Assembly (NCBI GenBank): GCA_021108435.1
Contig: JAIOQY010000030.1
Location: 1 to 58,948, forward strand
From: Candidatus Aegiribacteria sp.
GTDB lineage: Bacteria; Fermentibacterota; Fermentibacteria; Fermentibacterales; JCC-6
Length of the DNA stretch: 58,948 bases
Reading direction: 5' to 3'
The position numbers were made by a program, and so were the translations under genes. The notes below the pieces were generated by a model. That model searched no databases and was not told the DNA's origin. It saw only the letters and a list, made by a program, of their open reading frames with translations. Numbering within the stretch: position 1 is the stretch's first letter; every line of letters starts with the position of its first letter. Shown here in pieces: positions 74-2,276 of the stretch.

Positions 74-153
74 GGCTAACGCTTCAAATCAGCAGGCTGC
101 TGTAAGATTTTCTAGGAAGAAGCGGCAGCTCTGCTGCATTTGGTTGTTATAAC
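74..153 (-). other. attC recombination site of the first integron cassette
   Basis: Read on the minus strand (cassette orientation) the site begins with R'' GTTATAAC (146-153) and ends with R' GTTAGCC (74-80). The plus strand, which is the recombinogenic bottom strand, folds as follows: 77-80 pairs with 146-149; an unpaired central spacer follows (81-84 and 143-145); 85-89 pairs with 138-142; 90-95 pairs with 131-136; 96-100 pairs with 125-129. Bases C137 and T130 are left extrahelical on the 3' arm, and the terminal loop is about 20 nt. Two R boxes, L boxes, extrahelical bases on the L'' arm and a variable terminal structure are the defining architecture of attC. The predicted crossover is between 79 and 80. 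Confidence 0.88.
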
Positions 154-1031: not shown

Positions 1032-2276
1032 ATGAGTGTAGTTGATGAATATAGTGATTACCTCCGTTCAAACAGGTTGGTCACCGGGAACAGGGTCCAG
1101 TACTATTCTGGTTGGGTGAAAGCCTATAGGACAATGAAACGTCGGTATATGGAACCGTCTGACGAGAAAGCGAAACTGAGGTTTATTGAGCAATTGCGGA
1201 AGGACGGACGGGAAGATTGGCAGATAGAGCAGGCAGAGGATGCTGTCAGGATATATCTTGAGTTTAGAAAAAGAAGTGCCAGTTCTGACAATACTGTCAT
1301 TATACCAGATGATATTCTCGAGAGGGTTCGGGAAGGTCTGAGGTTGAAGCACTATGCATATCGTACTGAGAAAAGCTATGTGCAATGGGTAGAGAGATAT
1401 CTTAAGTATCTCGCAGGTATTGATGCTGATGCCAGCAGCTCGGAGAGGGTCAGAAATTACCTGACATATCTTGCTATTGATAGGAAAGTAAGTGCATCTA
1501 CGCAGAACCAGGCATTCAGTGCTCTTCTTTTCATGCACAGAGATGTTCTGGGAATGGAACTGGAAGGTCTCAGAGATACTGTCAGGGCTAAGCGTGGACG
1601 AAAGTTGCCTGTTGTTCTTTCTCCTGCGGAGGTGATGAAGGTTCTGGAAAATTCATCAGGTGTTTCTCTGCTTGCACTTCAATTACTCTACGGTGGCGGG
1701 CTGAGATTGATGGAGGTAGTTCGACTTCGCGTGAAGGATATCGATTTCGACAACAACCTGATACTCGTCCGGGACGGTAAGGGAGGAAATGACCGTACAA
1801 CACTGCTTGCTGAAGCCGTGAAACCTGATTTGATTTTGCACCTGGGGCATGTTAGAGGAATTCATGAGGATGATCTTGCTTCCGGAGCCGGGGATGTATG
1901 GATGCCGGATGCTCTTTCTCGCAAATACCCATCAGCAGGGAAAGAATGGGGCTGGCAATATGTGTTTCCATCGAGAGGGCTTTCACCCGATCCGCGTTCA
2001 GGCACAGTTAGAAGACATCATCTGAGCCCTGGAAGTATTCAGAGGGCAATGAAGAAAGCTGTCATGGCTGCCGGGCTGGTGAAGCATGCCAGTGTTCATA
2101 CACTTCGACACAGTTTCGCTACTCATCTTCTCATGGATGGAGTGGACCTTCGAGAGATACAGGAATACCTTGGTCATAAGAGCATCGAAACCACAATGAT
2201 CTATACGCATGTGATCCGGAATCTTCGGAATCCTGCAGTGAGTCCATTGGACAGACTGGAGATAATTCATGAATAA
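1032..2276 (+). CDS. intI: Integron integrase (tyrosine recombinase IntI)
   Basis: A 414-residue tyrosine recombinase. The catalytic set is visible: R225 in GGGLRLMEV, H356 and R359 in HTLRH, H382 in LGHKS, and nucleophile Y391 in MIYTH. Residues about 288-314 (DVWMPDALSRKYPSAGKEWG, then the WQYVFPS motif) form the extra patch found only in integron integrases, which grips the extrahelical bases of attC. The core-binding domain starts near residue 95 (DILERVREGLR.KHYAYRTE). About 90 residues precede it, making the protein longer than the usual 320-350. AAGGAG at 1018-1023 supports the ATG. It reads away from the cassettes, and its last 8 bases overlap the start of tex. Confidence 0.93.
   Translation: MSVVDEYSDYLRSNRLVTGNRVQYYSGWVKAYRTMKRRYMEPSDEKAKLRFIEQLRKDGREDWQIEQAEDAVRIYLEFRKRSASSDNTVIIPDDILERVREGLRLKHYAYRTEKSYVQWVERYLKYLAGIDADASSSERVRNYLTYLAIDRKVSASTQNQAFSALLFMHRDVLGMELEGLRDTVRAKRGRKLPVVLSPAEVMKVLENSSGVSLLALQLLYGGGLRLMEVVRLRVKDIDFDNNLILVRDGKGGNDRTTLLAEAVKPDLILHLGHVRGIHEDDLASGAGDVWMPDALSRKYPSAGKEWGWQYVFPSRGLSPDPRSGTVRRHHLSPGSIQRAMKKAVMAAGLVKHASVHTLRHSFATHLLMDGVDLREIQEYLGHKSIETTMIYTHVIRNLRNPAVSPLDRLEIIHE

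Follow-up and report, generated by a model that had tools for sequence, protein, structure and literature searches.

A folded attC site and an integrase with an extra N-terminal domain in a chromosomal integron of Candidatus Aegiribacteria

The stretch of DNA analysed here, called the window in the following, comprises 58,948 nt and is the whole of contig C30 of a 2.92-Mb draft genome of the uncultured bacterium Candidatus Aegiribacteria (96% complete). Its segment 74–153 is almost certainly an attC site, which ends the first cassette of a sedentary chromosomal integron and whose + strand would fold and then be cut and recombined by the integrase IntI. What the sequence shows for this reading is the structure, the boundaries, the complementarity in the circular form, the catalytic residues of the integrase and the turnover of the first cassette at a fixed site. 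The integron as such is of an ordinary, known kind, located in a little-studied phylum, and its unusual part is the integrase. With this finding, chromosomal integrons that look active and have a phage-defence-like gene in first position are located in the Fermentibacteraceae, and nearly all genomes of this family that we examined carry such attC sites. In the literature searched, we did not find Fermentibacterota named together with integrons.

The site belongs to the - strand, so that the + strand is the predicted recombinogenic bottom strand; folding, the scan and the covariance model described below as well as the circular form point to this assignment. On the + strand, 77–80 (TAAC) pair with 146–149 (GTTA) to form the 4 bp R stem, followed by an unpaired spacer in which 81–84 (GCTT) face 143–145 (GTT). 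The L stem consists of an outer block of 5 bp (85–89, CAAAT, with 138–142, ATTTG), the bulge C137, a middle block of 6 bp (90–95, CAGCAG, with 131–136, CTGCTG), the bulge T130 and an inner block of 5 bp (96–100, GCTGC, with 125–129, GCAGC). Hence the L' arm, supported by folding and alignment, spans 85–100, and the L'' arm, supported by folding and related sites, spans 125–142 and includes both extrahelical bases. The R' box lies at 74–80 (GGCTAAC on the + strand, GTTAGCC on the - strand) and the R'' box at 146–152 (TTATAAC on the - strand). R'' ends with AAC and R' begins with GTT, and the G^TT junction is confirmed by related genomes. The cut is predicted between A79 and C80 on the + strand (G80^T79 on the - strand), which makes 74–79 a part of the next cassette. 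The initial annotation had described exactly these 4+5+6+5 paired bases with an unpaired spacer and had placed both single-base bulges correctly. Its terminal loop of 20 nt has to be corrected to a variable terminal structure of 24 nt (101–124) between the 5-bp arms; here the minimum free energy fold contains three weak pairs (101–103 with 122–124) and a small inner hairpin.

Folding with DNA parameters, which had been proposed as a check, gave -17.0 kcal/mol for the + strand (z -3.58), a value equalled by none of 200 shuffled sequences, and -12.9 kcal/mol for the complementary strand (z -2.70). When the cassette's own start was rejoined to the site as in the circular form, these values became -20.3 (z -5.86) and -15.5 (z -4.44), respectively. 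Thus, the bottom strand folds better than the top strand in the linear and in the circular form. We also scanned both strands of the 59-kb window with a strict pattern of the architecture (AAC-spacer-stem-bulge-6 bp-stem...GTT). A single site was found, 74–153 with 16 bp. Shuffled versions of the window (n=60) yielded 0.3 weaker matches each, and in none of the 60 was there a comparable one of at least 15 bp.

An additional test, independent of the pairing within the hairpin, is provided by the R boxes. As the end and the start of a cassette are joined in the circle, R'' should agree with the first bases of the cassette to which it belongs and not with those of the neighbouring one. Indeed, this cassette begins with GTTATAA, to which R'' TTATAAC is complementary at four of the four variable bases; to the neighbour's GTTAGCC it is so at one of four. 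The same holds for 17 neighbouring cassette pairs in the contigs examined, with a mean R'' match of 3.4 to the own start versus 1.2 to the neighbour's; twelve of the 17 are perfect. Three of the five imperfect pairs are among those with the longest distances, where an intervening site may have been missed.

Cassette 1 is complete, lies on the - strand at 80–850 (771 bp) and is filled for the most part by an abiV gene. Its boundaries follow from the attC cut on one side and, on the other side, from a break at attI common to two related Candidatus Aegiribacteria genomes. To the left, the sequence indicates the start of cassette 2 (1–79, - strand), whose 13 codons resemble, by eye alone, the beginning of a GNAT acetyltransferase. 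It is cut by the contig end at window base 1, and the array past cassette 1 lies outside direct view. To the right, the intergenic region between cassette and intI (851–1031, - strand) contains attI, with the joining point at G851^T850, up to which it is conserved in three genomes. A possible Pc promoter within it (TTGACG-N17-GATACT, 920–948, - strand) is a weak candidate, because consensus matches occur about as often as expected by chance. In the two relatives its first hexamer reads TTGACA, so that TTGACR-N17-GATACT is conserved. The gene order is cassette array, attI and divergent intI, with tex directly after intI; the arrangement of array, attI and intI is canonical.

The two relatives are 94.7% and 90.2% identical to the window rightward from 846/847, through intI into tex, and gave no match to the window left of this position. 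In an alignment of the three genomes, agreement is almost complete as far as TAATAATTG^TTA and is lost beyond it. Since the match ends at the predicted insertion point in these relatives, there are three different first cassettes at one single site, G851^T850. That three such close relatives differ in their first cassette implies activity since their divergence, and the order intI-tex, kept in all three, indicates a fixed chromosomal location. Relatives carry cassette arrays beside intI, as read contig by contig. In one of them (L082:1-2200), genes for an unrelated tyrosine recombinase and for what resembles an IS91-type transposase lie on the integron's array side.

The gene of cassette 1 (155–841, - strand) belongs to the AbiV (HEPN) family according to PF18728 (156 bits, cut-off 27.1), TIGR04498 (148.3 bits, cut-off 27) and PADLOC (AbiV). 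Its start may be a GTG at 826, after GGAG. From this family membership, its product appears phage-defence-like and may have a role in defence. No AbiV homologue was found among 41 related genomes at an E-value of 1e-10; consequently, movement of the cassette cannot be traced through AbiV.

The intI gene (1032–2276, + strand) encodes 414 amino acids, of which residues 95–409 constitute an integron integrase (TIGR02249, 402.5 bits, cut-off 265). It starts about 880 bp from the attC site, a distance which spans one cassette plus attI, so that, on the scale of an integron, the earlier description of the site as lying next to an intI gene is correct. Its reading frame is intact, its product is 93% identical to the integrases of the two relatives, and the catalytic residues R225, K250, H356, R359, H382 and Y391 are conserved in 24 of 24 aligned integrases. 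These observations are relevant for the alternative that 74–153 is a dead site, left over from a former integron in which the integrase or the site itself no longer works. Second and third integrase copies within the family are indeed often broken by in-frame stops, and one copy in the same genome was cut short by an apparent inserted element. However, the intI of the window with its complete set of catalytic residues, the intact R boxes and the different first cassettes in the three relatives speak against such decay, and we consider it unlikely.

A second integron integrase of the same genome (L018:176-1378, at the edge of contig C178) is 46% identical to the one described here. The frame of a third intI (L019:2586-2867, contig C215) ends at roughly codon 93, and what should follow has apparently been replaced by the inserted element; upstream of this intI are attC sites and a GNAT-like gene. 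Several other copies found in the family (G011:C72, G015:C116, G018:C35 and others) contain in-frame stops or are fragments. These broken copies suggest repeated gain and decay of intI in this family.

In 0.4 Mb of contigs examined we found 29 attC sites versus 0.33 in shuffled sequences. Fourteen of the 29 were aligned, and standard pairs occupied 95% of the structure cells. Double changes were seen at 12 of the 15 L-stem pairs, while the columns of the two extrahelical bases stay unpaired; these covariation figures are inflated, as the sites were partly chosen by a scan that requires pairing. A covariance model built from the related sites, with 74–153 within its training set, detected 18 attC sites in the genome, 17 of them on other contigs. 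Thus, instead of cassettes with unrelated ends, which the initial annotation had named as the observation that would speak against an attC site, 17 further sites fit one model, and the geometry agrees across two attC subfamilies. Within the family, 35 of 36 genomes gave matches to the model, with at most 45 in one genome; among the outgroup genomes, two of 18 did. A more general R-box pattern applied over the genome is useless as a sole detector, since it gave fewer matches than the reversed control. At the first extrahelical position the commonest base is a top-strand G, equivalent to C on the bottom strand, which is present in 15 of the 29 sites; six have the C (bottom G) that is typical of Vibrio and of class 1 sites. 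Arrays free of an integrase also occur (L024 and L026, contigs C138 and C9), with small genes between the attC sites which include, by eye, toxin-antitoxin-like pairs.

According to another explanation, the hairpin is an intrinsic terminator, serving abiV or the gene on its left, and resembles attC only incidentally. A consensus scan did give two terminator-like stems inside 74–153 on the + strand, but this is close to the 1.0 expected by chance and this strand is opposite to that of abiV. Furthermore, R boxes, spacer and two bulges recur at fixed places in the 17 other loci of the genome, and R'' agrees with its own cassette start. We regard this explanation as very improbable, and as the sole one it is ruled out by the cassette break common to the relatives. 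A REP- or MITE-like repeat spread by a transposase, suggested by a conserved stem in numerous copies per genome, is the least credible possibility and was rejected, because the copies lie between unrelated genes, mostly spaced by ~0.6–1.5 kb and sharing one orientation beside intI, because their arms vary in sequence with pairing kept, and because R'' tracks the start of its own cassette, which is unexpected of a repeat.

The preferred reading thus is an attC site used by the adjoining integrase, and the analysis supports that the + strand is the bottom strand recognised by integron integrases, as originally proposed. For strand use, cutting and promoter activity we infer the following course. 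The + strand, when single-stranded, would fold, and R'/R'' and L'/L'' would form two integrase-binding boxes, with the spacer and the two extrahelical bases (C137 and T130) orienting the site. IntI might then cut the + strand between A79 and C80. Recombination with attI (G851^T850) or with another attC would insert or excise a circular abiV cassette of 771 bp, and insertion at attI would put abiV first in line for transcription from a putative promoter in attI.

The integrase itself deserves attention, as its residues 1–85 (window 1032–1286) lie outside TIGR02249 and matched no Pfam family. The predicted structure of this part consists of four helices (pLDDT 93.9) whose lengths resemble those of a normal core-binding domain. 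In a profile comparison with the core-binding domain of the same IntI, a P of 4.6e-5 and a probability of 68.6 were obtained. The best plausible fold matches were core-binding domains of tyrosine recombinases (TM 0.63–0.71), with E-values that were not significant. On these models, a duplicated core-binding domain is probably the best reading of the extra domain. It contains the motif DWQIRQA (DWQIEQA in the window), present in the loci L018, L074, L076–L080 and L083–L086, and in the second integrase of the genome it occupies L018:176-400. The domain was found in integrases of Fermentibacterota and in loci labelled Acidobacteria, Nitrospirae, Phycisphaerae, Elusimicrobia, Desulfobacteraceae, Kiritimatiellales and Victivallis; three IntIs of other phyla and two within the family lack it. 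Searches of viral contigs gave no relative of this N-terminal domain, searches of the PDB sequences found nothing, and no description of an N-terminal extension of IntI was found in the literature searched. We lean, if only slightly, towards the view that the IntIs of Fermentibacterota and of some members of several other phyla represent an undescribed architecture with two tandem core-binding domains, which would give a further contact to DNA or protein on attC or attI. If this is true, such a contact would act when the folded attC or attI is held, and the role of the extra domain in handling folded single-stranded DNA is the point of interest.

In attCaadA7, as in 74–153, the bulges are spaced by 6 bp, and the distances from the R box to the bulges are 8 and 9 nt. 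The attC sites attCaadA7 and VCR (class 1 and Vibrio cholerae), for which bottom-strand definitions and the binding of IntI to the folded bottom strand have been described, have the order R''-L''-L'-R' as found in 74–153 (PMC2727003). They also share with it an unpaired central spacer, two extrahelical L'' bases on the bottom strand and a variable apex. The arm sequence, in contrast, is unlike theirs, and the first extrahelical base of the bottom strand is a C instead of their usual G; in VCR, a change of this G to C had only a 2.7-fold cost (PMC2727003). Residues 95–409 of IntI can be aligned with VchIntIA (PDB 2a3v) over the full length (41% identity), and the catalytic residues and the integron-specific insert are common to both, whereas VchIntIA lacks the N-terminal four-helix domain (about 85 residues). 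That integron cassettes can carry defence genes has been described before (Darracq 2025, Getz 2025, Kieffer 2025, cited in PMC12444791). The integron of the window differs from those sedentary chromosomal integrons with anti-phage cassettes in its host phylum, Fermentibacterota, and its defence function is a predicted one. In other features it is like them: a defence-like gene in the cassette, with toxin-antitoxin-like genes by eye in other arrays, and an intI at a fixed locus, an attI and changing cassettes.
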